The position numbers and the translations under genes are program-made. From positions 1 to 64,000 of the forward strand of contig CALXWH010000020.1 of assembly GCA_944392315.1 (NCBI GenBank): a stretch of 64,000 nucleotides of DNA. The letters run 5' to 3'. Under the pieces are notes generated by a model that did no database searches, had not been told where the DNA came from, and was given only the letters and a program-made list of their open reading frames with translations. Origin of the DNA: an uncultured Alphaproteobacteria bacterium (GTDB lineage Bacteria > Pseudomonadota > Alphaproteobacteria > RF32 > CAG-239). Within the stretch, counting starts at the first letter, position 1. Every line of letters begins with the position of its first letter. Positions 28,308 through 44,150 of this stretch are shown piece after piece.

Positions 28308-29663
28308 ATGATTAAATTTAACGGACGACCGGGAAACGATAATAAAAATAATGCCGGTAAACCGAAAAAACGTCGGTTTAACGATAAAGGGATAAAAATG
28401 GCCGACGAACGCAACGGTGTGGATGAGCGCGCTATCTCTCAATTTGCCGAAAATGCTTTTTTGAAAAATGCCAAAACGTTGCCGGTGGTGATGCCCCAGG
28501 TGCTTAAACATCAAGCAGGACAAGAGGGACAGAGAGGACCGGATAAATCCCGTGGGGAAATTCGCAAAGGCGACCGTAATCCTACGATGGTGCAGAGTAA
28601 TTATGCCGCGATTGATTTGGGTACAAACTCTTGCCGATTGGTGGTGGCAACGCCGACAACAACTTCTTTTCGCGTGGTGGAAACGTTTTCTAAAGTCGTA
28701 CGCTTAGGCGAAGGGATTATTCAAGATAATGAACTCTCGCCAAAAGCCATGCGCCGGACTATTCAAGCGCTTAAAATCTGCCGAGGCGTGATTGATGAAT
28801 ATATGCCGATTGTCGCCAGCCGCTTTGTGGCGACGGCTGCTTGCCGCAGAGCTAAAAACGTGGCGCAATTTGTGGAAATGGCTAAACGCGAGGCCGGTAT
28901 TGAATTGGAGGTTATTTCTTCTAAAGAAGAGGCCAGACTTTCTGTGGTGGGGTGTTTGCCGCTCTTAAACCGCAATATCAAGCGCGTGTTGGTGTTTGAT
29001 ATCGGTGGAGGCTCAACGCAAATCTCGTTGGCGCGCGTGACCGATAACGGCAAAACGTTTATTGAGGGATTTGTTTCGCTCCCTTATGGCGTGGTGACCA
29101 TTTCCGAAGCCTTTGCCGGACACGAAATGAGCACGCTGGAATATTCTACCGTGGTGGAACGCACGCAGGCCATTTTGCAGGAATTTGAAGATAAACACCA
29201 AATCTATCAGGCGATTGCTAATCAGGAAATTCAAGTTATCGGTACTTCCGGCACGGTTACCGTTATCGGGGCGGTGCACTTGAAACTGCCGCGCTATAAT
29301 CGGTCGGCGGTGGACGGTATTGCCATCTCGGCGCCGGATATTGACTACACCATCAATAAAATCAAAAATATGGGTGTGGAAGGACGCTGTAAACATCCTT
29401 GTATCGGACAATCTAAATCGGACTTGACGGTTGCCGGTTGTGCGATTATTGAGGCGCTGATGACGTTTTGGCCGATTTCGGAAATTACCGTGGCGGACCG
29501 CGGTATTCGCGAGGGGATTTTGCTTGACTTGATGCATGCGCAAAAAACAAATTCTTCTCATCATAAAAAGAATCGGCGCGGCGGTCGTTTCCCCTATGAT
29601 CGGCGGGTGCATAAAAAACAAGCATTTCGCTCGGGTGCCAAAGGGGCTGCTCAGGTGCAATAG
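28308..29663 (+). CDS. ppx: Ppx/GppA phosphatase (1)
   Basis: 451 residues. Actin-like ATPase fold: YAAIDLGTNSCRLVV near residue 100 and VFDIGGGSTQISLA near 230 are the phosphate-binding motifs of exopolyphosphatase/pppGpp phosphatases. About 95 basic, low-complexity residues precede the domain (NGRPGNDNKNNAGKPKKRR) and a basic tail follows (HHKKNRRGGR...). Start ATG 28308 has GGAGTG upstream. A second paralogue and rlmE follow; the ppx-rlmE order is known in Alphaproteobacteria. Whether it degrades polyphosphate or (p)ppGpp cannot be told. Confidence 0.9.
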   Translation: MIKFNGRPGNDNKNNAGKPKKRRFNDKGIKMADERNGVDERAISQFAENAFLKNAKTLPVVMPQVLKHQAGQEGQRGPDKSRGEIRKGDRNPTMVQSNYAAIDLGTNSCRLVVATPTTTSFRVVETFSKVVRLGEGIIQDNELSPKAMRRTIQALKICRGVIDEYMPIVASRFVATAACRRAKNVAQFVEMAKREAGIELEVISSKEEARLSVVGCLPLLNRNIKRVLVFDIGGGSTQISLARVTDNGKTFIEGFVSLPYGVVTISEAFAGHEMSTLEYSTVVERTQAILQEFEDKHQIYQAIANQEIQVIGTSGTVTVIGAVHLKLPRYNRSAVDGIAISAPDIDYTINKIKNMGVEGRCKHPCIGQSKSDLTVAGCAIIEALMTFWPISEITVADRGIREGILLDLMHAQKTNSSHHKKNRRGGRFPYDRRVHKKQAFRSGAKGAAQVQ

Positions 29664-30040: not shown

Positions 30041-30152
30041 GAGAGTGTGAAAAGAGGAAGAGAGTGAATAAGTTAAAAGTTGAGGTTGTTATATAAAATT
30101 TCAGGGTATAATCTTGTAAGGATTTGATTTTTTGCTTTGTTGCGGAGGACTT

Positions 30153-31109
30153 ATGGAAGAAAAAAAATTGGTGCAAACAGATGGTAAAACTTATTTTGCG
30201 GCGATGGATTTGGGGACGAACTCTAATCGTTTGTTGATTGTCAATGAAAAGGGCGAACCGGTTTATCGTGATGTCAAACATGTGGCGTTGGGTGAAAAAT
30301 TGGCCGAAAATCATTGCTTCTGTTCGCAGGCCATGGAACGTGCCATCTGCTCGTTTATGGATTTTTCGGAAATGCTGAAGCTCTATCATGTTCAAAAATA
30401 TCGGGCAATTGCTACGGCCGCTTGCCGGATGAGCTCTAACACCAAAGATTTTTTGCAAGAAGTCAAGAAAACCTCCGGTATTGATATTGATGTTATCAGC
30501 GAGTTTGAAGAGGCGCGCTTAACCCTTTTGGGTGCTAAACTCAATGCCCCGAAAGATAAAAAATATTTGCTCGTTTATGACTTGGGCGGCGGTTCTACCG
30601 AGGTGACGCTGGCTACCAATTCGGCTAATCCGCAAATCTTGGCGACCGTTTCGGTGCCGCTTGGCGCGCGCAATTCTTCGGAAATGTTTAACCTCTTTCT
30701 TTATAATGAAGAAGGTGCTTTGGCGTTGGAAGGGAAAGTTTTAGATTATCTGAAGCCGTTTTTGGAAAAAATTCAGGCGTTTGATTATAAAGAAAATTCG
30801 GCGCTGATTGCCACTTCTTCCATGCCGCTTCGTTTGGTTTCTTGGATTAAGCATCATCCGAAATATGATAAATTTGCATCAGACGGCCAGACCGTTGCTC
30901 TTGATGAGGTGGAAAAGGTGATTGGCAATATGTTGCATATGTCGCTTCAAGAACGCTCCGAATCGCCCTATATCGGGCCGAACCGCGCTCCGATTTTTGT
31001 GGCGGCGGGCATCATCTTTCGGACTATCTATCGCGCGCTTGAACAAAAAGAAATGACCGCTTCGCTTAAAAGTGCGCAAGAGGCTATTGTGGCGGAATTG
31101 GCGGCGTAA
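30153..31109 (+). CDS. Ppx/GppA-family phosphatase (2)
   Basis: 318 residues from ATG 30153, chosen because GGAGGA lies 4-9 nt upstream. Motifs FAAMDLGTNSNRLLIV (residues ~12-27) and VYDLGGGSTEVTLA (~145) define the actin-like fold. It lacks the basic extensions of the upstream paralogue and is diverged from it. It probably shares a cluster with the preceding ppx and following rlmE, although a repeat array separates it from the former. Confidence 0.88.
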   Translation: MEEKKLVQTDGKTYFAAMDLGTNSNRLLIVNEKGEPVYRDVKHVALGEKLAENHCFCSQAMERAICSFMDFSEMLKLYHVQKYRAIATAACRMSSNTKDFLQEVKKTSGIDIDVISEFEEARLTLLGAKLNAPKDKKYLLVYDLGGGSTEVTLATNSANPQILATVSVPLGARNSSEMFNLFLYNEEGALALEGKVLDYLKPFLEKIQAFDYKENSALIATSSMPLRLVSWIKHHPKYDKFASDGQTVALDEVEKVIGNMLHMSLQERSESPYIGPNRAPIFVAAGIIFRTIYRALEQKEMTASLKSAQEAIVAELAA

Positions 31110-33410: not shown

Positions 33411-34150
33411 CGGCGGAACAAAATCGTGTGTTTCGTATTTTATTGCGGAGCTTTTTTCTTTTCCTTGATAAAGGGGCGTGTGGAGAGGGTGTGTGATTAA
33501 AAGTCGCAAAGTTGTATTCAGTTGACGAGCCTTTTTATGTCCTTGGCAAAGGGGAGCGTGGGGAAATTTGGTGTTTAAATGCCGTTTGTCTTGTTGGGGA
33601 GCTTAATCAGTTGCCCGTTGGGGCAAGTTTGCCACGCAAACTTGTTTGCTTGATTTGTTGAAAAGTGATTGTTGCGGTTAGAAAATCGCTCAAAAAGTAT
33701 ATACAATGTTATAGAGATAAGGCGAGGGGCGAGGCAGCCCTACGGGGCGTTGAAAACATCGTTTCCAACGGTGGATGAGTGGTTGATGTGCTTGGGCTTG
33801 TTGAGATAGGTAAATCACTCAAAAAGCATATACAATGTTATAGAGATAAGGCGAGGGGCGAGGCAGCCCTACGGGGCGTTGAAAACATCGTTTCCAACGG
33901 TGGATGAGTGGTTGTGAAAGCCGTTTTTGTGGGAGTGGGAGAAAATCTTTGCTTTTTTCTGGAGGCTCAATTTCTTTTTAGGATGTGTATTGTTGCCTTT
34001 CAGGGCAAGTTGAACCGATGTTCAACTTGGTGGCTTGTTTTTTTGATGAGCAGATATCCTCTTGAAAGAGTGGGGCGGTTATTCGTTGTTATTTATGGGT
34101 AGAGTAGGCAAGAGTGCAAGTGCGAACTTGGTGGCTTGTTTTTTTGACGT
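33411..34150. repeat. Upstream-type repeat block without a family gene (copy 2)
   Basis: Motif order matches 230-470 and 48890-49250: 'gtgattaaaagtcgcaaagt', the 'ccttggcaaaggggag' block, 'cagttgcccgttgggg', then a CAAGTTTG/CAAACTTG hairpin. It also holds two 103-bp direct copies at 33683 and 33812 (period 129). Near 33929 a segment resembles 456-475, just before the promoter of the first family gene, but no promoter or family reading frame follows. Confidence 0.7.
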
Positions 34151-34184
34151 CGTTCGTGTGTTTTTAGTTACGGCTGCTTGCAAT

Positions 34185-34496
34185 CTATTCGCTTGGGCGG
34201 GCTTTTTCTTCTAAACTTATTTTAAGCTCTTTGCCGTATAGTTGCAGTAAGCCGCTGATGACGTACCAATTTAGGCTCGTTTTGCCGCGTTCGGCTTTTT
34301 CTACTTTCCACGTGTAGGCGTGGATTTGCATTGCGACATCTTGGCAACTTAACCCATGTTTTTCGCGTTCGGTTTTGAGCAATTTGCCTAACTGTTTCCG
34401 AAACGCTATGGCGCTGGCGGAGCCTTGTTCGCTATATTGGCGGCGGCGGGCGATTTCGGCGGCGGATAATTCTGTTGTTTCTTCCATGATTTTCAC
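34185..34496 (-). CDS. Small helix-turn-helix (Xre-type) regulator
   Basis: 103 residues. A Cro/CI-like HTH is suggested by LGKLLKTEREKHGLSCQDVAMQIHAYTWKVEKAERGKTSLNWYVISGLLQLYGKEL (shown only as the segment spanning residues ~34-90), with Leu/Ser positions of helices 2-3. AAGGAG lies upstream of the ATG. The leader carries an intrinsic terminator and interleaved inverted repeats, so expression is probably controlled by attenuation or autoregulation. It lies between repeat DNA and a phage-like island and may be its repressor. Confidence 0.8.
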   Translation of the reverse strand: MKIMEETTELSAAEIARRRQYSEQGSASAIAFRKQLGKLLKTEREKHGLSCQDVAMQIHAYTWKVEKAERGKTSLNWYVISGLLQLYGKELKISLEEKARPSE

Positions 34497-34510
34497 TCCT
34501 TTTTGTTATT

Positions 34511-34542
34511 AAAACAAAAGGCACAGCTTTTGAAGCAGTGCC
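34511..34542 (-). terminator. Intrinsic terminator in the leader of the Xre gene
   Basis: On the minus strand GGCACTGCT / AGCTGTGCC (one mismatch) is followed by TTTTGTTTT. It lies 15-46 nt before the ATG, so it can act as an attenuator or end a short RNA. Confidence 0.7.
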
Positions 34543-34634
34543 AGGGAGTTAGACAATCACATAAGTATGACTCTTCTTACCTTTATGTATACGCAAGAAG
34601 CTCCCTGACATTCGTCAAGGATTTAATACTTATG
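34542..34634 (-). promoter_or_regulatory. Interleaved inverted repeats (pseudoknot or operator)
   Basis: CAGGGAG (34542-34548) pairs with CTCCCTG (34601-34607), and CATAAGTAT (34560-34568) pairs with ATACTTATG (34626-34634). The two stems interleave as in an H-type pseudoknot. Alternatively the 9-bp repeats are a split operator. Confidence 0.45.
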
Positions 34635-34642
34635 AGAGCGGT

Positions 34643-34920
34643 CTAAAGCCCTACTTCCATCTCTGAAAGTTCTTTTATCATAAAAGACCTTTCTTAAATT
34701 GCAAGCCTTTTTTGGGGTGGTGCACTTGGGCAAATTGTTGCCGCGGACTTAATCCTTTGTGGAGCAAAGTTTGAGGTGCTACGCGCGGACTTCTTCCTTT
34801 GAGGCTGGGACTTAGTTCTTTGTGGGGCTAGGGAATTTATAGCTTAAAAATATTTTTTTAACCGCGCCCAAATCTATTGACATCCTGTCGGGGGTGTGCT
34901 AACTCTTTTTTATGATGGCG
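34643..34920. other. Intergenic repeat segment
   Basis: Bases 34660-34750 match the window start (1-91), then one and a half degenerate copies of the 64-bp unit follow. No gene is seen. Confidence 0.65.
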
Positions 34921-34950
34921 GTCGTGTTTGTGGTTGGCCGCTTTTGTTTT

Positions 34951-34973
34951 GCCTGCATCTGCAGGCTTTTTTT
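34951..34973 (+). terminator. Intrinsic terminator
   Basis: GCCTGCA-tc-TGCAGGC hairpin with seven Ts. Confidence 0.85.
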
Positions 34974-35009
34974 ATGCGCGGAAAAATATTTTTTTCGCTT
35001 GGTTTAACA

Positions 35010-35035
35010 GGCACCTTTTTTAGGTGTCTTTTTTT
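35010..35035 (+). terminator. Second terminator directly before the phage-like gene
   Basis: GGCACCT / AGGTGTC hairpin with seven Ts, 13 nt before ATG 35048. Either it insulates the island or it is an attenuator. Confidence 0.8.
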
Positions 35036-35047
35036 ATTGGGAGATTT

Positions 35048-36403
35048 ATGATGAAGGGATTGACTAACGCTTTATCGCAGAGCACTCATACCGGCAGTGA
35101 TATCGGTGATTTGGTTTATGCCGTCAATAATACCGGTGCTAATATTGTTAAAAATCAAAAGGTTTGGTTAAATAAACATAATCTTGATGAAAGTGAGTCA
35201 GCGTTTTCACAGTATGATAGAATATATTATTATAAATATTATCCTATTTTTGATTCAAATAATAATTTTTCAATATTGGATGATATGTACAGATATAAGT
35301 GGACTTATAATACAGACGATAAAACTTGGACAATATCCGATACAAGTATTACAAGTATTTATACATCTAATTTCTTTTTACAGTATCATAATAATACTTA
35401 TTATGGATTAAATTTGAGTAGTTGGAGCGGCACTGGTAGTTATTATAACTTTAAATATAATGAAACAGATAAAGAACCAATACAACAAGGTTATTGGATA
35501 AATGATACTTATAAAGTTGTTTGGGTATCTAATTATATTTATAATCTTATAAATAATAATGATTCTTCAATTATATATACTTTTGATTTTTCAAGTATAA
35601 GAGCATATATTACTACAATTATATATAAAAATAATAAAATTTTAATAATTACAAACAACACTACTGGTAACAATGTTTATTGGTATCGGATTAACTTGGA
35701 GCAAGACTATGTGGGGCCGGATTCTTCCTTAACTGTAACGCCTTTAGTTGCTCTTGATAACAGTGTCGTCAGGACTAAAAATGTTATTATGTATTACACG
35801 GGTATTGAAAATGATGATTATTTATTCACATTAGATACAACAAATGATACTCTTCCCAAAATAAGAACTTTATATGCTTATAAAATTGTTGATAATGATA
35901 TTATATCTGCAATAGATTTACAAGCAGATTTACAAGCATTAGTGGGGCAATCTTGTTATATTTTTTATGATGATAGAGTTAAGCGTTTGTATGTTTCAAC
36001 AAATGATAAAATTTATTTATTTACTTGGAAATCTGGTGAATTTGTAAATGAAAATATTACAATAAATCCTTTAGATTATATAACGCCTTATGATACATCT
36101 ACTGGTTTTTGCTTTGCTTTATCAGATGATATGACAACTTTATTCTTGCACGGTATTACTACATCACAAAGAGGTACAGCATATGCATTTAAAAGAAAAA
36201 CAACATCAGATGATTGGTACGCCGAAAATTTTGCGCAATGCTCTTCTTTGTCCTTAACGGGGTTTGCTACGGGGGAAACGGATTCTCAAGGTCGTTATGA
36301 AGTTAATACAGTGTTGCCGGAGATTTTGAAGCTGACCTTAAATATTACACCAGATATAACAGATAATGACATCAGTTTTAGAGGAGAAGCCAATGACTAC
36401 TAA
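35048..36403 (+). CDS. Phage tail-fibre-like protein
   Basis: 451 residues from ATG 35048 (GGGAGA 5-8 nt upstream; ATG 35051 is possible). The N-terminal segment MMKGLTNALSQSTHTGSDIGDLVYAVNNTGANIVKNQ resembles the base of phage fibre proteins. The body is Asn/Tyr/Thr-rich with beta-propeller-like repeats (VYWYRINLEQDYVG, LYAYKIVDNDI). The end carries GFATGETDSQGRYEVNTVLPE. It is far more AT-rich (AAT, TAT codons) than the neighbouring genes, suggesting transfer. No signal peptide. It overlaps the next gene. Confidence 0.7.
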   Translation: MMKGLTNALSQSTHTGSDIGDLVYAVNNTGANIVKNQKVWLNKHNLDESESAFSQYDRIYYYKYYPIFDSNNNFSILDDMYRYKWTYNTDDKTWTISDTSITSIYTSNFFLQYHNNTYYGLNLSSWSGTGSYYNFKYNETDKEPIQQGYWINDTYKVVWVSNYIYNLINNNDSSIIYTFDFSSIRAYITTIIYKNNKILIITNNTTGNNVYWYRINLEQDYVGPDSSLTVTPLVALDNSVVRTKNVIMYYTGIENDDYLFTLDTTNDTLPKIRTLYAYKIVDNDIISAIDLQADLQALVGQSCYIFYDDRVKRLYVSTNDKIYLFTWKSGEFVNENITINPLDYITPYDTSTGFCFALSDDMTTLFLHGITTSQRGTAYAFKRKTTSDDWYAENFAQCSSLSLTGFATGETDSQGRYEVNTVLPEILKLTLNITPDITDNDISFRGEANDY

Positions 36404-37388
36404 ATCTTATAAAGTTTATGCAGGTATGTCTTTTAGTTATAAAATCACAAAATCTAAATACTTTGATTATGAAGTTTCTAAGGCGATTGAAGAAAATACC
36501 ACGGATAACATAACTTTGGAGGAAAACCCCGGATTAAACATTAGCTTTGATTCGCTATCAAGTCCAAAATTGGTTACTATCTCTGAGGGATTGCTTCCTA
36601 ATAAAAGCACTTTTGCGGGAACGGTTGGATACTTTGGACAATATCCGAATATCTTTTTATATGATAACCAAATCTACAAAGGGCTTATAGCGAATAAAGA
36701 TATTACCGTACCTAATTTATACGCTCAATATAATTATAATACTGGTGAAATGTTGTTAGGGTTTCATCCTATTGAGGGATTTGTATGGGCAGGGGCTACA
36801 CTTAATCGTTCATCACTTCAAACAGATGGTAAATGCAATTTTGAAGTAAAAGGAACGCCGACATTTAGTGAACATATTGTTTCTGGATTAGACGCAAATA
36901 ATTATTTGCATACTTCCTTTACAACACCTGATGACGGACAAATTGAAATAACCGCTAAAATTATAATAAATACTTCTTATAATTGGCAAGTTTGTTTTAT
37001 GAATACAGCAACAGTTACACATCTTATAAAAACTTTTAAGGGAACTGTGGGATTATATACTCTAAATTCAAATGATATGGGGAGCTTTGCCGTTACAAAT
37101 GGTGATGTTGTTTGGGTGAAAGTTGTTATCACGTCTGAAAATTGTATACAGTATGTCATTAAAGACACTGGATATACTTTGGATACGTTACCTGATATAT
37201 CTTCGTGGACGAAAAATGTGGAAACAACCGATAAGGTTATTAACACAGGTGAAAATAGTTACGTCATTGGGATAAATGCTGATACAAATTATTCGGTACA
37301 ACATTGGTACGGAAGTGTTGACTTAGATAATTTTGTTATCAAAAACGGAAGCGGTGAGGTAATTTGGAAACCTATTGGAGAATTGTAA
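36393..37388 (+). CDS. Phage-like protein with lectin-like (LamG/ConA) domain
   Basis: 331 residues from ATG 36393, which has GAGGAG upstream and overlaps the previous stop by 11 nt, implying coupled translation. The first ~110 residues are a beta-rich module (SYKVYAGMSFSYKI...). From ~140 (GATLNRSSLQTDGKCNF) a jelly-roll/laminin-G-like domain is suggested by DDGQIEITAKIII and the end WYGSVDLDNFVIKNGSGEVIWKP, common in tail-fibre and carbohydrate-binding proteins. AT-rich like its partner. Probably a receptor-binding component or decoration protein. Confidence 0.7.
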   Translation: MTTKSYKVYAGMSFSYKITKSKYFDYEVSKAIEENTTDNITLEENPGLNISFDSLSSPKLVTISEGLLPNKSTFAGTVGYFGQYPNIFLYDNQIYKGLIANKDITVPNLYAQYNYNTGEMLLGFHPIEGFVWAGATLNRSSLQTDGKCNFEVKGTPTFSEHIVSGLDANNYLHTSFTTPDDGQIEITAKIIINTSYNWQVCFMNTATVTHLIKTFKGTVGLYTLNSNDMGSFAVTNGDVVWVKVVITSENCIQYVIKDTGYTLDTLPDISSWTKNVETTDKVINTGENSYVIGINADTNYSVQHWYGSVDLDNFVIKNGSGEVIWKPIGEL

Positions 37389-37646: not shown

Positions 37647-38324
37647 TTAGGCTAAACCGATGTGCGGGATATAGCCGCCTAAGTTTAAGCCGCTTGCTAA
37701 TTTCGCTTGTTCCCAACGATCTTCAAATTTGGTGTCAAAAATCAGTTTGGTATCACCATCCACAATCAGCCACCGATTGTTAAATATCTCCCACTCCAAC
37801 TCACCGCGGTTCCAGACACAATGTCCCATGGCGATTATCTTTTTTTCCGGCCCTTCGCCGTCTAGGATATCTTGCAAAACGCCAAACGAGCTGGATATAG
37901 CGATATCACCATGGACTTCCGCGTGCGGGTCGCTGTAAAAACTCCCTTTGCTCGGGAATAACACAAAGCCATTGGCCGGGTTGACGGGGCCGCCTTGATA
38001 TAAATCTTCATAAACACCGCGGGCTTCTTTTTCTACACCGCCTTCACGGCTATGACACTCCACAACCGCCGTGCCGAAAAGCAACTTGTTTATCATAATT
38101 CCTTTGACGCGTTCCGGTGAGCAGTCAGTGATGTATATCACGGCTTGATTATAAATATCATTGGGGTCTTGACCGATGTTGACCAAACATTTGCCGACTA
38201 AGGTATCATTACGTTCTTGTTCATAAGTGATGTCGGCGGAAGTGTTCTTTTTGCGACGCGGACGGGGCAGTTTGGTGTTGAATAACGCGTCATTGTCGTC
38301 AAAATCTTTGTTTGTCTTTCTCAT
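37647..38324 (-). CDS. yqgE: YqgE/AlgH family protein
   Basis: 225 residues. The family core is seen in LVGKCLVNIGQDPNDIYNQAVIYI, GIMINKLLF, YQGGPVNPANGFVLF and IAMGHCVWNRGELEWEI. The biochemical role is unsettled; in Pseudomonas AlgH affects alginate. A ~40-residue polar N-terminal extension precedes the domain. The upstream SD is weak (GAAAGACACAG). Monocistronic. Confidence 0.9.
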   Translation of the reverse strand: MRKTNKDFDDNDALFNTKLPRPRRKKNTSADITYEQERNDTLVGKCLVNIGQDPNDIYNQAVIYITDCSPERVKGIMINKLLFGTAVVECHSREGGVEKEARGVYEDLYQGGPVNPANGFVLFPSKGSFYSDPHAEVHGDIAISSSFGVLQDILDGEGPEKKIIAMGHCVWNRGELEWEIFNNRWLIVDGDTKLIFDTKFEDRWEQAKLASGLNLGGYIPHIGLA

Positions 38325-38428
38325 CTTTATCTGTGTCTTTCCTTAAAAAGGTTATTGCTTTTTGTCTGACCTGTTATTATTATCTTAGGCATATCTTAAT
38401 TTTATCTTTAAATCAACCGTAAAAGTTT

Positions 38429-41400
38429 ATGAAAAGATTTATTTGTTATATAGGGTGTGCGTTTGGGTTTTTCAACCTGATGATGGGGGAAATTCCTACT
38501 GCTTTAGCCGAGATTGATGCGGCTCCGCAAACGGCGGTGCAGCGTGTCGGCGATGAAGCTCATGCGGTGGTTCAGGAGGCGGACGGAGCGGCTGTTTCTG
38601 AGGAAGTTCGTGCGGTGCATGAGAAGAAAGTTGCAGCAACGACAGAGGGAGATGTTGCGGCAGGCGATGTGGCGATAGCGGAGGAAAATGCTGCGGTGGA
38701 GGAAGCCGAAGGTGCACTGCAAAGTTTGGTGCAAAAAAACGGCGGGCAGGTCTCTCTTAAACCCATTCCGCAAGTGCAAAAAATAGAAACTCATCCGCTT
38801 TCTTCTGCAAAAGAGGAGGCTTCTTCTCAACAAGAATTTATGTTAGAGCAGAAACCAGCACCAAAACAAGAATCTACGGCAGAGCATATTCATAATGAAT
38901 TGGCAAAATTGCTGTTCTTGCCATTTGTGGCGGATAAGGTTTATGCGGGGGATAAAATTCACGGTGACCTTTCGGGGCTGATTTTAACTTTTTATCCGAC
39001 GGCAAGCGATGAAACCGTGCAAAAATTTACTAAAGGTATTCGCTTTTTTGTGCGGTGGAAGCGGAAATATGATTATGTGGTTGCTCGCTTAAAACATCAG
39101 GTTAAAGCGATGAAAATGCTCCCCAAAGATGCGCCGATTGTGGCTCGTGAAGGCGAATATGCGCCGCTTGAGACGGATTTGACCAAGCAAACCGGCAGCG
39201 GGGAATATCAGGTGAGCTATAAGCCGTATAAATATCTGGAATATGATGCCGGTCAATATGGCGAGCCGGTGCGGCGGATGGATAAAAATTATGTGACGAC
39301 CGATGAAACCACATATGCCGAATTGTTGTTGGCATTGTTGCAATTTGATATGCGCGCGTTTGTGCAGGCGTGGAAAAATATTCCGGCTTCTACCGATGGG
39401 GCGGGGGAGAAATTTCAGGATTTTGCCGATAAGGGGGAAATTCGCTTGTTGGCGGATAGCTCACTTTTGGGGGATCAGAAAAAAATTCGGGCGGCGTTTG
39501 ATATTTTGGTGCCGGAGGGATTTTATATCAACGGCGATGTGCTGAACCCACAGAATAAACTGGGCTTTGTGCTTTCGGAAACCGAACTTAAAACGAATAC
39601 GGGGGCGGTCTATCGGCCGAGCAAAAACGTTAGCGCGTATCAGATTTATCAGCCGTTGGCAGACGGAATCCAAGATAAAAATTCCGTGATGCATCGCGTG
39701 TTGAGCGGAAGAGTTCGCGTGCCGGTGGAATTTGAACGTGCCGACGTGACGAAATCTATGCGGATTTCCGGTGCGTTTCGGTTTGTGTTGTGTTCGGCGA
39801 AGGGCACGTGTCAGCCGGTTGTTTCGTATCATGAGTTGACGTTAAGGCAAGGAGTGCCGGCCGAATCTTCTATTTTTGTAAACTATATCACGCAGGGGTT
39901 TGCCAAATATCCGTTGGCGCAGAGCAAACACGTCAAAGTGCGCGAGGTTACGTATGATGCAGAAAAAGCACAGTTGGCAGTGCAGTTTGAGGGAACGGCC
40001 GATATCAGCAATATGGCGGCGATGGTGGAAGATGCTCAAGGGACGAACTTTGTTAATCCGCGGTACGAGATGAAGCATAGCGGCGGCAAATGGCTGGGAA
40101 CGGCGTATTTTGACCTTAAAACGGCGGCCTCATCAGCGGGGACTTTGAACGGGGGTTCGGCAGCTTCGGGCGAGGGTGTTTCGGAAGGTTTTTCAGACAG
40201 TACTTCTATGGCACAGGGCGAGGGTGTTGTAGGTGGTACATCGGCGGAACAGCGTACCGAACAGGTTTTTGAAGCGGCGGAGAGTTTGCCTGAAGTCGCG
40301 GTCAGCGCTTCGTTTGATAATCGGGAATTTTTGCGCTTGGTGACGACGCCGCGCTTATTGTCGCCCGAAATGCCTTTGGCGGAACAAAATTTCAGCGCAT
40401 GGGGCTTCTTTGTGTTCGGGCTTATGATGATGCTGATGCCGGTGATGTTTGCGTTGTTGTTTAATCTGGCGGCTCTTATCTGGCAAAAAGAAGAGCGCGG
40501 GCGGATTTTGGCGCGCTTTGCTCTTACTTTGGCGGTTTTGCTCGGCGGATTGGCTGTCTTTGGGGCGGAATATATCGCCAAGCCCACGTTTTATCTCTCA
40601 GGACCGATTGTGGTGACGGTTATGGGGCTTGCCGTGGCGCTGATGATGGAGCATTTGGGGTATGTGGACTTAACGCTGTTTCGGCCGCTCCGCAAACTTT
40701 GCAAATACGGTGTGTTTTCGGCGGTGTTTATGGTGGTGGTCTTTATCTTTGCGCCGATGCCGTATAAAACAGAAGTGCTGGATGTTTTGGGGCGGCAAAG
40801 CGATACGCTTTCACTCGGTTATCGCTTGAGCGCGTGGGGGCTCATTTGGCTCGGGATGATGATTTTGCCGTTTCTCACGCTTTGGATTGCCCCGAAAACA
40901 ACCTATTTCTTGCTGTTTTGTGAGCGGATTAATTTGTTTTACACGGGCTTGTTGTTGGCGTGGGTGGTTTGGATTTGCGGGGCGGTTTATTCGCTTTGGG
41001 CGGCACTGTTGATAGCGGCGTTTGGTGCGGTGATGGCGGCGCTCTGGTATTGGTTTCCGATAGCTGTCGGGGAGGTGATTAAGCACGCGCGTTCGGCTTC
41101 ACGGCAGGCAGAACTTTTCTTTCGGGTGCAAAAGCACTGGCTTTTGGCGCTTGTGCTTGTTATGGTGGTCTTTGGTTTTGGGGTTTCCGTATGGGCGCCG
41201 CGCGAAAGGGCTCCTCAAACGGTAACGGCAGAGTTTGCGTCGGTTAAAATGGCGCAAGAACGAGACCCACAACGGCCGCTTTTGATTACCGTGGGGGCGG
41301 CTTATTCCCCAAGAGCGTTAATGAACTTGCGGGTGGTCGGCGTGCTCAAAAAAGCGGGGCTGGCGGTGATTGAAATTGATGCTTTAAAAAATCCGGAAGA

Positions 41401-41539
41401 GGCTTATTATTGGTTTCAACGTTATCAGCACTTTTATCCGCCTTTGTCGGTGTTGTTTACGGCGCGGCATCCTTATGGGTTGGTGTTGCCGCAAAACTTG
41501 AAAGAGGTGGACTTTAATAAGGCTTTGAGCGGGTGGTAA
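38429..41539 (+). CDS. DsbD/ScsB-like membrane protein lacking core cysteines
   Basis: 1036 residues. Signal peptide 1-27, then an Ala/Glu-rich linker to ~170. Residues ~355-475 resemble the periplasmic N-terminal DsbD domain, including a CxxxxxC pair (CSAKGTC) spaced like Cys103/Cys109 of E. coli DsbD. About eight membrane helices follow (~655-920); the helix that carries LMPC in ScsB/DsbD reads LMPV here. The C-terminal domain (~950-1036) resembles the thioredoxin-like domain, but WCxxC is replaced by AAYSPRAL. So electron transfer as in DsbD should not be possible; a structural or substrate-binding role is inferred. No SD at ATG 38429. hydF follows 40 nt downstream. Confidence 0.7.
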   Translation: MKRFICYIGCAFGFFNLMMGEIPTALAEIDAAPQTAVQRVGDEAHAVVQEADGAAVSEEVRAVHEKKVAATTEGDVAAGDVAIAEENAAVEEAEGALQSLVQKNGGQVSLKPIPQVQKIETHPLSSAKEEASSQQEFMLEQKPAPKQESTAEHIHNELAKLLFLPFVADKVYAGDKIHGDLSGLILTFYPTASDETVQKFTKGIRFFVRWKRKYDYVVARLKHQVKAMKMLPKDAPIVAREGEYAPLETDLTKQTGSGEYQVSYKPYKYLEYDAGQYGEPVRRMDKNYVTTDETTYAELLLALLQFDMRAFVQAWKNIPASTDGAGEKFQDFADKGEIRLLADSSLLGDQKKIRAAFDILVPEGFYINGDVLNPQNKLGFVLSETELKTNTGAVYRPSKNVSAYQIYQPLADGIQDKNSVMHRVLSGRVRVPVEFERADVTKSMRISGAFRFVLCSAKGTCQPVVSYHELTLRQGVPAESSIFVNYITQGFAKYPLAQSKHVKVREVTYDAEKAQLAVQFEGTADISNMAAMVEDAQGTNFVNPRYEMKHSGGKWLGTAYFDLKTAASSAGTLNGGSAASGEGVSEGFSDSTSMAQGEGVVGGTSAEQRTEQVFEAAESLPEVAVSASFDNREFLRLVTTPRLLSPEMPLAEQNFSAWGFFVFGLMMMLMPVMFALLFNLAALIWQKEERGRILARFALTLAVLLGGLAVFGAEYIAKPTFYLSGPIVVTVMGLAVALMMEHLGYVDLTLFRPLRKLCKYGVFSAVFMVVVFIFAPMPYKTEVLDVLGRQSDTLSLGYRLSAWGLIWLGMMILPFLTLWIAPKTTYFLLFCERINLFYTGLLLAWVVWICGAVYSLWAALLIAAFGAVMAALWYWFPIAVGEVIKHARSASRQAELFFRVQKHWLLALVLVMVVFGFGVSVWAPRERAPQTVTAEFASVKMAQERDPQRPLLITVGAAYSPRALMNLRVVGVLKKAGLAVIEIDALKNPEEAYYWFQRYQHFYPPLSVLFTARHPYGLVLPQNLKEVDFNKALSGW

Positions 41540-41579
41540 TGTTTTTTGTTTTGTTTTTTATGTAGGAGGTTTGTGGCTT

Positions 41580-42785
41580 ATGGCTATGCAACTTAATGCT
41601 TCAGCTCCCGCGGGGATGCGTTTGACGGTGGCGATTATCGGAAAGGCTAATGCCGGTAAATCTGCCCTCTTGAACCAAATTGTCGGACAAGATACGGCGA
41701 TTGTTTCTGCCGTTGCCGGTACAACAACCGACGCGGTGTTAAAACCCTATGAACTGATACCGGTCGGGCCGGTGTGTTTTTATGATACTGCGGGGCTTGA
41801 TGATACGACCGAATTGGGCGCTAAACGAGTGGGCGCAACCGAAAAGGTTATTCGTAAGGCCGATATGGCGTTGTTGGTTATTGGGGAAGACGGCGTGGAT
41901 GATTTGACAAGAAAACATATGGCGCTGTTGGAAGAAAAGAAAATCCCGTTTATCCTTGTGTTTAACTTTAGAGATAAGCGTCGGTTGAATGATGCCGATC
42001 GCGACTTTTTTGACCGCTTTAAGGGCGTGTTTGTTTCGGCTAAAACCGGCGAGGGGATTGAAGAATTAAAACAGCGGATGATTGATGTTTTGACGCCGTT
42101 TGCGCAAGAGCCGCCGTTGTTGCATGATTTAATCAAGCCTAAAAATACCGTGCTGTTGGTGGTGCCGATTGATTTGGCGGCGCCGAAAGGACGGCTCATT
42201 TTGCCACAGGTGCAGGCGTTGCGGGAAATTTTGGATGCCGACGCCATGCCGGTGGTTGCAAAAGTGAGCGAAGTGGCGGATGTGTTGCATAACTTATTGA
42301 CACCTCCTGATTTGGTGATTACCGATAGTCAGGCGGTTAAAGAAGTGGCCGAGATTGTGCCGAACGCGGTTCCGCTGACGACTTTTTCAACACTCTTCTC
42401 GCGCTATAAAGGTGATTTTAATGCGCAACTTGAGGGCGCAAAGGTGATTGATAAGCTTCAAAACGGTGATAAGGTTTTGATGGCGGAAGGATGTTCGCAC
42501 CATATTACCTGCGATGATATCGGGCGGGTGAAAATTCCGAATTGGATTTTGAAATATACCGGAAAGGATATCCGCTTTGACTATGCGCAAGGGACGGATT
42601 TTCCGGATAATCTTAACGACTACGCACTCGTTATCCATTGCGGCGGATGTATGCTCAATCGGGCGGAGATGCGGCGGCGTATCAACGAATGTGCGCGGCA
42701 GAACGTGCCCGTTACCAACTACGGCATCTTGATTTCTAAGATGATGGGTGTGTTGGAGCGTGTTATTAAACCTTTGGAAAAATAG
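41580..42785 (+). CDS. hydF: [FeFe]-hydrogenase maturation GTPase HydF
   Basis: 401 residues. N-terminal GTPase: P-loop GKANAGKS (~21-28), TTTD switch, DTAGLDD (~65). The C-terminal iron-sulfur region has GCSHH (~304) and HCGGC (~353), the family CxH...HCxxC ligands. HydF is the scaffold that carries the 2Fe subcluster made by HydE and HydG to HydA. Start ATG 41580 is 10 nt after AGGAGG; TTG 41571 would be too close. HydE, HydG and HydA are not in this window. Confidence 0.93.
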   Translation: MAMQLNASAPAGMRLTVAIIGKANAGKSALLNQIVGQDTAIVSAVAGTTTDAVLKPYELIPVGPVCFYDTAGLDDTTELGAKRVGATEKVIRKADMALLVIGEDGVDDLTRKHMALLEEKKIPFILVFNFRDKRRLNDADRDFFDRFKGVFVSAKTGEGIEELKQRMIDVLTPFAQEPPLLHDLIKPKNTVLLVVPIDLAAPKGRLILPQVQALREILDADAMPVVAKVSEVADVLHNLLTPPDLVITDSQAVKEVAEIVPNAVPLTTFSTLFSRYKGDFNAQLEGAKVIDKLQNGDKVLMAEGCSHHITCDDIGRVKIPNWILKYTGKDIRFDYAQGTDFPDNLNDYALVIHCGGCMLNRAEMRRRINECARQNVPVTNYGILISKMMGVLERVIKPLEK

Positions 42786-42868: not shown

Positions 42869-43951
42869 TTACTTGCGGTTGTCTTCATATTTGCAACGGC
42901 GTTTGATGATGGTTTTTATCTCATCGGCATCATTTGGCGCCATGGCATACAACGGAATTGAAAACGGCGTGAACACATTATGTTTGCACAAGTGCTGCAT
43001 AAAGGTCAGCTTGTATTTGTCTTTGGCTTCCGCTTTTAAGTGCAACGCTATTATCGGGCGGCGGCTGATGAAACTGGTGTATTTTTCTTCGGCCAGTTCA
43101 ACATCGTTCCAATTTAACAAGGCGTTGTGGTCTATTTTTATCCCTTCATGATTGATGACGGCCACAGGTTGCGGGAATATCAACACAAACACAACCATGG
43201 CTAAGGCGACCAAGCTCAAGGTCATTACCGCAATCAGCAGGGTAACCATGGTCATGGACGTAATTAAATGACAGCACATCAGGCATCTGGTCAGCAACCA
43301 TACAAAGTATGAAACGGCTGCGTATAATAATGTCAGTGCCACAATTTGACGGCGCTCGTAATAAAAGACTTTTTCTTCACTCGGGTGAATGAGTTCTTTG
43401 AACTTGTCCTTGATTTCTTTAGCGGCGCGTTTGGCGGCTGTGGTGGTCGCATTTTTTATCCCTGATGCGGCTATAGCTGCGCCGACAGGTAATTTTTTGA
43501 CACGCTTTATTGGGCTTTCGCTTACGGTTGCTTCTGTGGTTGCGACCTCGTTTAGCTCTTGATTAAGCTCGGCCGTTGAGGCTTCGGCTTTTTCGGCGGC
43601 AGATTTCGCAGCTTTTTTCGCGTTTACCATTTTACGCAATGCCTTTTTGGCCTTTATTGTGGCTTTGAGGGCTTTTTTGCTGGCCTTTTGCGCTTCTTTT
43701 TCGGCGGCTTTTTCTACCGTTTTTAAGGTTGTTTCTATCGTGCGCTCAACGATTTTTTTCGGAGCGGCTTTGGCGGCGGCCGGAAGTTTCTTTATCTTTT
43801 CGGCAACGGGGGCTATCACCTTTTTCTTTTCAGCGGCAGCAGGTGCTGCGGGCTCTGGTGCAAGAGGCGCTTTTTTGACGGCTTTTGCCGGCGTCTTTTT
43901 GGCTCTGACGGGAGCGGCGGCCGCGGGTTTACGCTTTGGGGTTTTCGGCAT
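42869..43951 (-). CDS. Membrane protein with histone-H1-like N-terminus
   Basis: 360 residues from ATG 43951, chosen because AGGA lies 8 nt upstream. Residues 1-~200 are Lys/Ala/Pro-rich (KRKPAAAAPVRAKKTPAKAVKK) with a long Ala/Lys/Glu helix, like H1/Hc1 DNA-binding tails. Two membrane helices follow (~207-230, ~237-262), then a ~90-residue soluble domain (VAVINHEGIKIDHNALLNWNDVELAEEKY) reminiscent of bacterial PH-like domains. It could tether nucleoid to membrane, but that is inference. Confidence 0.75.
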   Translation of the reverse strand: MPKTPKRKPAAAAPVRAKKTPAKAVKKAPLAPEPAAPAAAEKKKVIAPVAEKIKKLPAAAKAAPKKIVERTIETTLKTVEKAAEKEAQKASKKALKATIKAKKALRKMVNAKKAAKSAAEKAEASTAELNQELNEVATTEATVSESPIKRVKKLPVGAAIAASGIKNATTTAAKRAAKEIKDKFKELIHPSEEKVFYYERRQIVALTLLYAAVSYFVWLLTRCLMCCHLITSMTMVTLLIAVMTLSLVALAMVVFVLIFPQPVAVINHEGIKIDHNALLNWNDVELAEEKYTSFISRRPIIALHLKAEAKDKYKLTFMQHLCKHNVFTPFSIPLYAMAPNDADEIKTIIKRRCKYEDNRK

Positions 43952-44150
43952 TTCTTTATCCTTTCGTGTTGACATACATACTCGCTGTTATTGTTACTCG
44001 TATTCGGTTAATGCATGGTTAATATATAGCGCTTTTTTGTGGGGGTTTTAGATGTTTATGGCCTTTTTGCTTGACTTTCGGCGGCGGGATGATAAATTTG
44101 TGGCGTTATTGAATTATTTTGAGGTTTAACTTTTTTTAAGTATATGTCTT

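Follow-up and report, generated by a model that had tools for sequence, protein, structure and literature searches.

An ScsB orthologue stripped of its membrane and C-terminal relay cysteines, and the recurrent loss of these cysteines in a family of uncultured Alphaproteobacteria

The window analysed here (64,000 nucleotides of an uncultured alphaproteobacterium, taken as a whole) encodes a protein that is ScsB, of the DsbD superfamily, by descent, fold and gene order, and from which four of the six relay cysteines are gone, the outermost (alpha) pair alone remaining. Its bacterial family has taken this relay apart many times, starting at the cytoplasmic side and moving outwards, and the recurrent, polarised loss is more interesting than the window protein itself. 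Our leading explanation, to which we assign a probability of about 0.42, is that this ScsB was unplugged from the cytoplasm while its alpha domain would still be the working part, recharged in trans by DsbD.

Domain plan and cysteine content of the window protein

The gene is an open reading frame with an ATG start and zero internal stops. Its parts and its two flanking genes are as follows.

37647..38324, minus strand: yqgE, divergent neighbour (PF02622, E 2.3e-26)
38429..41539, plus strand: ScsB orthologue without beta and gamma cysteines, 1036 aa (ORF, translation, orthologues, synteny, alignment)
38429..38890, plus strand: residues 1-154, a signal-like start (judged by eye) and a variable low-confidence stretch (pLDDT mostly <50; 29-46% identity to nearest relatives)
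38891..39403, plus strand: residues 155-325, mostly helical extension (model and alignment)
39404..40354, plus strand: residues 326-642, ScsB-type periplasmic alpha domain with two Ig-like parts (6c29_A match)
39791..39811, plus strand: C455-x5-C461, the sole cysteine pair kept (hairpin of strands 444-456 and 461-473 in the model)
40397..41191, plus strand: residues 657-921, helical membrane (beta) domain (models; alignment with DsbD_TM-bearing orthologues)
40442..40444, plus strand: V672, first membrane cysteine site (MPC; alignment)
40751..40753, plus strand: A775, second membrane cysteine site (TPC; alignment)
41231..41536, plus strand: residues 935-1036, cysteine-free thioredoxin-fold (gamma) domain (model pLDDT 84; thioredoxin matches)
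41306..41317, plus strand: S960-P-R-A963, gamma CxxC site (alignment)
41571..42785, plus strand: hydF, next gene downstream (TIGR03918, 519 bits)

The AlphaFold2 model, built from 12 sequences, has a mean pLDDT of 69, with much higher values in the folded domains. Its residues 326-642 match the Proteus ScsB N-domain (6c29_A) with Z 15.1 and rmsd 4.0 over 231 of 247 residues, followed by nDsbD (6dps_E, Z 9.4) as the second-best structural match. A second model, covering residues 653-1036 (pLDDT 84), shows a helical membrane part with a thioredoxin fold at its end, and the gamma domain matches solved thioredoxin structures at Z about 11 over 93-98 residues; the list from the membrane-domain structure search was filled by thioredoxin rows, and the membrane fold is predicted from the models and the alignment. 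Given the ScsB N-domain match, the helical membrane part and the terminal thioredoxin fold, the modelled plan is alpha-beta-gamma, as in ScsB. The helical extension is common across the bacterial family and falls outside the 6c29 N-domain match, which begins at 326. Profile libraries say little: in Pfam, DsbD_N matches weakly at 396-464 with an E of 0.017, short of the cut-off, and DsbD_TM (PF02683) does not match at E up to 0.1, NCBIfam has no match, and a PDB sequence search with the protein returned nothing relevant. Neither a promoter nor a terminator was found by a scan of 38200-38600, and a plasmid search had zero matches.

There are seven cysteines: C6, C10, C455, C461, C758, C831 and C850. 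A sequence-only reading of this DNA had assigned the protein to the DsbD/ScsB superfamily, which fold, alignment and gene order bear out, and had recognised the N-domain pair, C455-SAKGT-C461, whose x5 spacing indeed equals that of E. coli C103/C109. According to the available part of PMC7347389, the E. coli pair (in DsbD numbering) lies on opposite strands of a hairpin and electrons pass in DsbD from thioredoxin to the membrane domain, then to the C-terminal and finally the N-terminal domain. In alignment with cysteine-intact orthologues from other genera of the bacterial family, where the reference motifs are NFMPCVFPV, ATPCTAPY and WCLTC, the window protein has V672 for the C of N(F/L)MPC, A775 for the C of (A/S)TPC, and S960 and A963 for the C..C of WCLTC. 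This confirms the change from LMPC to LMPV and the replacement of the C-terminal WCxxC noticed in the sequence-only reading, which had overlooked the second membrane site (A775) and had rightly described a tail without cysteine but put it at ~90 residues; it spans 186 (after C850). In the G014 orthologue (L034), the alpha pair provides the only cysteines among 1139 residues. Judged from the residues present, the window protein acting alone cannot operate the known cysteine relay.

Recurrent loss and retained constraint in the bacterial family

A single-sequence scan of genome contigs for relatives found nothing; the relatives search by alignment query stands at 12 named loci, from uncultured, metagenome-assembled Alphaproteobacteria, several of deer and buffalo gut. 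Of the 152 family genomes searched with a profile, 147 gave a match, in some cases to DsbD only, and 133 ScsB orthologues were classified. The remaining 19 genomes are G002, where the gene is split between two contigs (the pieces keep the alpha pair and have MPG at the first membrane site, CxxC being absent), G010, whose ScsB is a 115-aa stub, G128, left out of the classification with only an N-terminal piece among the matches listed, and 16 without an ScsB-sized match among the matches listed.

The alpha pair is kept in all 129 evaluable orthologues, with a spacing of x4 to x6. Alpha, both membrane cysteines and gamma are present together in 83 of the 133, alpha and gamma with both membrane cysteines lost in 25, and alpha only in 16, namely the 12 of the window's genus and G058, G105, G117 and G095 from four other genera. 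Both membrane cysteines are lost in 41 orthologues, and the gamma pair also in 16 of these 41, representing five separate lineages; gamma was lost in no case where both membrane cysteines remain. One membrane cysteine is lost in four orthologues (the second alone in three, the first alone in one), gamma lies outside the contig in one and alpha in two, and two frames are broken (G133, with the alpha pair in the other open piece, and G150). G064 was scored as lost despite a cysteine one column from the second membrane site, and G081, G138 and G151 as intact despite drifted motifs. The survey dismisses the idea of a lone oddity. Nor does the alignment show membrane cysteines conserved at other positions: in the 41 proteins without both, the only cysteine columns common to at least 30% are the alpha pair (41/41) and the C-terminal pair (25/41), a count by which compensating cysteines elsewhere in the membrane domain are rejected.

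The window's genus, with 12 of 12 proteins lacking beta and gamma cysteines, is the most divergent such lineage and constitutes one side of a 100/100 branch in a careful 25-row tree. For the history of loss, a quick-method tree of 129 rows was made from the alpha module alone, with SH-aLRT as its only support measure; it gives 13 changes for any loss, 11 of them forced by starred branches, and 5 changes for the combined loss of beta and gamma, all 5 forced. Tree counts alone cannot decide between loss and gain; the changes are read as losses since paralogous DsbD and the outgroup loci have the sites intact. Some lineages show the order beta then gamma, in that altered singletons adjoin beta-lost, gamma-kept relatives: G058 sits beside G021, and G095 beside G090, the fork of these last two being open and including intact G081 as well. 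G105 belongs to a group containing relatives of this kind and G117 sits beside intact ones. The same order probably applies to the window's genus. Descent and the polarity of loss are established by these comparisons.

The window protein and its G007 orthologue are 79% identical over alpha, 71% over gamma and 56% over the membrane domain; for the intact pair G032/G018 the figures are 57% (G018 alpha only partly covered), 72% and 60%, respectively. Values of dN/dS for the three closest pairs range from 0.07 to 0.27 over the three domains (rough estimates, dS >1) and from 0.07 to 0.16 in alpha, against 0.30-0.65 in the N-terminal stretch and a linker that is saturated (two pairs) or at 0.49; the pair G014/G013 gives 0.24-0.34 over the three domains. 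Of the columns conserved in 84 intact proteins, the window's genus keeps 0.80 in the first Ig part of alpha, 1.00 in the second, 0.35 in the helical extension, 0.22 in the membrane domain and 0.38 in gamma, the ranges of retention being 0.80-1.00 for the alpha Ig parts, 0.22-0.56 for the membrane domain and 0.38-0.66 for gamma. Moreover, 42 positions are newly invariant, occurring in 12/12 genus proteins but in less than half of nine intact ones, including R1013-H1014 and L750-F-R-P753, and the cis-proline P1005 is kept in 11/12. Part of the ancestral alpha signature has changed in the genus, namely the proline at 411 and four of six conserved helical-extension positions. These sequence comparisons show purifying selection on the protein, strictest in the alpha module, and the pattern looks like a change of function under selection, not decay, because low dN/dS, retained alpha columns and 42 new invariant positions occur together. 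A frameshift, annotation error or pseudogene is rejected by dN/dS and by the 12 open frames of the genus: all 12 aligned ones stay open for 868-1139 codons, 10 of them complete and 2 running in from a contig end.

DsbD, candidate partners and the neighbourhood

A search of the genome (1.56 Mb, 96.7% complete) for a normal DsbD, suggested along with the sequence-only reading, found one: the single PF02683 match is a 636-aa DsbD with all six cysteines present, at a separate locus (L002). DsbD occurs in 13 of the 13 genomes that combine beta-lost ScsB with completeness of 90% or more and contamination of 5% or less; among the altered-ScsB genomes, the search had no match in G002 (97% complete, 6% contaminated, 140 contigs), G004 (65%) and G006 (72%). 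Of the genomes with a single match among the matches listed, G069, G081 and G142 (at least 95% complete) keep the beta cysteines and G070 (88%) does not. These match counts hint at the pattern that supply in trans would predict, namely beta cysteines retained wherever DsbD is absent. In the 20 DsbD loci inspected, membrane cysteines are present in 20/20, the gamma CxxC in 19/19 covered and the alpha pair in 19/19 covered; the scan pattern missed the motifs of three loci, which were read by eye. Because DsbD loci are intact as far as covered, the erosion is specific to the ScsB gene.

Four DsbA/ScsC-like proteins (motifs CGYC, CGYC, CGHC and CSHC) and a TlpA-like protein with CFPC, beside an [FeFe] hydrogenase, are also encoded in the genome and are, by family membership, candidate partners of ScsB alpha. 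The finding of DsbD and of these CxxC proteins rejects a genome without any redox system. The four DsbA/ScsC-like proteins (G000:C3, C6, C12; loci L140-L142) include two in tandem, and genus members searched have 3 or 4 of them versus 2 in G029 and G020. At L144 (G000:C15; 1375-1965 and 2041-3492) the TlpA-like CFPC protein adjoins the hydrogenase on opposite strands, and matches to both families are ~1 kb apart in G007, G008 and G017 too.

The divergent yqgE is adjacent in the window and in those genus loci that extend far enough, and it accompanies altered as well as intact orthologues. Among 11 loci of other genera, 9 have it next to the gene (the other two stop at a contig end beside the gene); it is also adjacent in G019 and G020 and beside three of the four further altered singletons, and for the fourth, G095, a search of the surrounding 8 kb did not find it. 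On the other side, hydF follows the ScsB gene only in the window's genus and is absent from the G004 locus. Four of 18 genus genomes (G003, G005, G015 and G016, 81-100% complete) lack the ScsB gene, yqgE and hydF together, and G030 is without ScsB and yqgE. Since those four still carry an [FeFe] hydrogenase but no hydF, their missing locus suggests an assembly or binning gap rather than loss. A functional link to the hydrogenase through hydF was dropped, because G004 keeps the altered gene without hydF and four genomes have the hydrogenase without the locus. The joint absence in these four could reflect joint loss or a hard-to-assemble locus, and several further genomes of the genus have the gene on short contigs or interrupted by a contig end.

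Upstream of yqgE, positions 34001-37388 have a low G+C of 0.36-0.37 versus about 0.45; ORFs 35024-36403 and 36366-37388 have counterparts at the same place in G008 that are 31-35% identical, and one ORF of this stretch has 34% identity in G010, other neighbours reaching 80-99%. The protein of 42869-43975 combines a long lysine/alanine-rich N-terminal part with a membrane segment and shows 81-93% identity to its counterparts in the two nearest genomes; further out, conservation is confined to the C-terminal part. Two Ppx/GppA-family proteins (28308-29663 and 30132-31109) lie close together on the same strand.

Possible roles of the alpha pair and known systems

In the leading explanation, the ScsB orthologue would no longer carry electrons over the membrane. 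The work would be done by its alpha domain, which a non-conducting scaffold would keep at the membrane and which would swap electrons with periplasmic thioredoxin-like partners (the four DsbA/ScsC-like proteins and the TlpA-like CxxC protein). Reducing power would reach alpha in trans from the complete DsbD encoded elsewhere, a two-protein relay thus taking the place of a one-protein relay. We infer that the alpha pair may be redox-active, with DsbD as its candidate reductant. The 'other electron source' offered in the sequence-only reading fits the data and corresponds to this explanation. That reading holds up in part, in that there is no solo relay, the gene is not a decaying pseudogene and a normal DsbD is present; its 'pseudo-redox' label lacks support, the alpha pair being retained in every evaluable orthologue, and specific support for a 'receptor' is absent. 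Against recharging in trans, genomes with an intact ScsB have DsbD too and its presence therefore does not discriminate, G002, G004 and G006 carry an altered ScsB without a DsbD match, and part of the ancestral alpha signature has changed in the window's genus. We hold more tentatively, as possible, the fuller proposal of a distributed relay, in which a membrane-held alpha terminal would pass electrons received in trans from DsbD to clients of its own, the old conduit would serve as a scaffold with new invariant residues, and the dismantling would be convergent and ordered, beta then gamma, never alpha.

It seems rather unlikely that the alpha pair is a structural disulfide only, in a protein that now serves, without redox activity, as a periplasmic scaffold, chaperone or adaptor whose Ig-like and cysteine-free thioredoxin domains bind clients. 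A gamma fold kept and constrained without cysteines, with its cis-proline and the 42 newly invariant positions, would suit such a role; the equivalent pair of solved nDsbD, however, is catalytic, not structural, in the accessible portion of PMC7347389, and the variable spacing of a pair that is nevertheless never lost is compatible with either reading. Another role would be that of a Cu(I) site in a membrane-held copper buffer or sensor, for which an electron conduit is unneeded and which would require the alpha pair, not beta or gamma. S. Typhimurium ScsB sets a precedent, its reported affinity for Cu(I) being subpicomolar (PMC8900818, in the part available), but a third conserved Cys is absent and copper genes were not seen in the neighbourhood examined, and we regard this role as improbable. 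Slow decay, with the gene heading for loss since DsbD suffices, is disfavoured as very improbable: the relaxed membrane domain and the genomes without the gene are what it would predict, but the open frames, dN/dS values far under 1 in all three domains and the new invariant residues speak against it, as does the probable assembly or binning gap behind the four gene-less genomes. The computations made separate none of the three readings in terms of recharging in trans, structural disulfide and Cu(I) site.

In the standard picture of DsbD, alpha is fed by the beta and gamma of its own chain (PMC7347389, available part); in this bacterial family beta, then gamma, has been lost again and again, alpha never. 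If the leading explanation is true, alpha can function without its own conduit, and the recurrence of the change in related bacteria makes it seem that the outer part has a job of its own. Within the family, natural variants that are intact, beta-lost, or both beta- and gamma-lost form a matched set for testing trans-feeding by DsbD, the structural disulfide and the copper site. There is also a warning for annotation, as descent from ScsB does not guarantee reductase function. A literature search over titles and abstract openings, with most subscription papers outside it, returned no description of an ScsB or DsbD without membrane cysteines, which is not proof of absence.

Compared with ScsB of Proteus, Salmonella and Caulobacter, the window protein shares the two-part periplasmic N-domain with its alpha Cys pair, the membrane domain and the C-terminal thioredoxin fold, in the domain order given in the available part of PMC8900818; it differs in lacking the beta cysteines and gamma CxxC, in having the extra helical extension (155-325) and in escaping detection by Pfam DsbD_TM. 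The DsbD of the same genome (L002) is of the same superfamily and domain order but has six cysteines, a shorter N-domain and a different locus. In other alphaproteobacterial families, a DsbD/ScsB adjacent to YqgE was found at 4 of 24 loci (~1.5-kb flanks); unlike the window protein, all four have both membrane cysteines, and the gamma CxxC is present in three and not found in the fourth, a short locus. Thioredoxin-fold domains free of cysteines exist, for example in calsequestrin or the PDI family. They resemble the gamma domain described here in retaining the fold without CxxC, whereas in our case the domain is the C-terminal part of a membrane protein with orthologues that, judged by motif, are redox-active.
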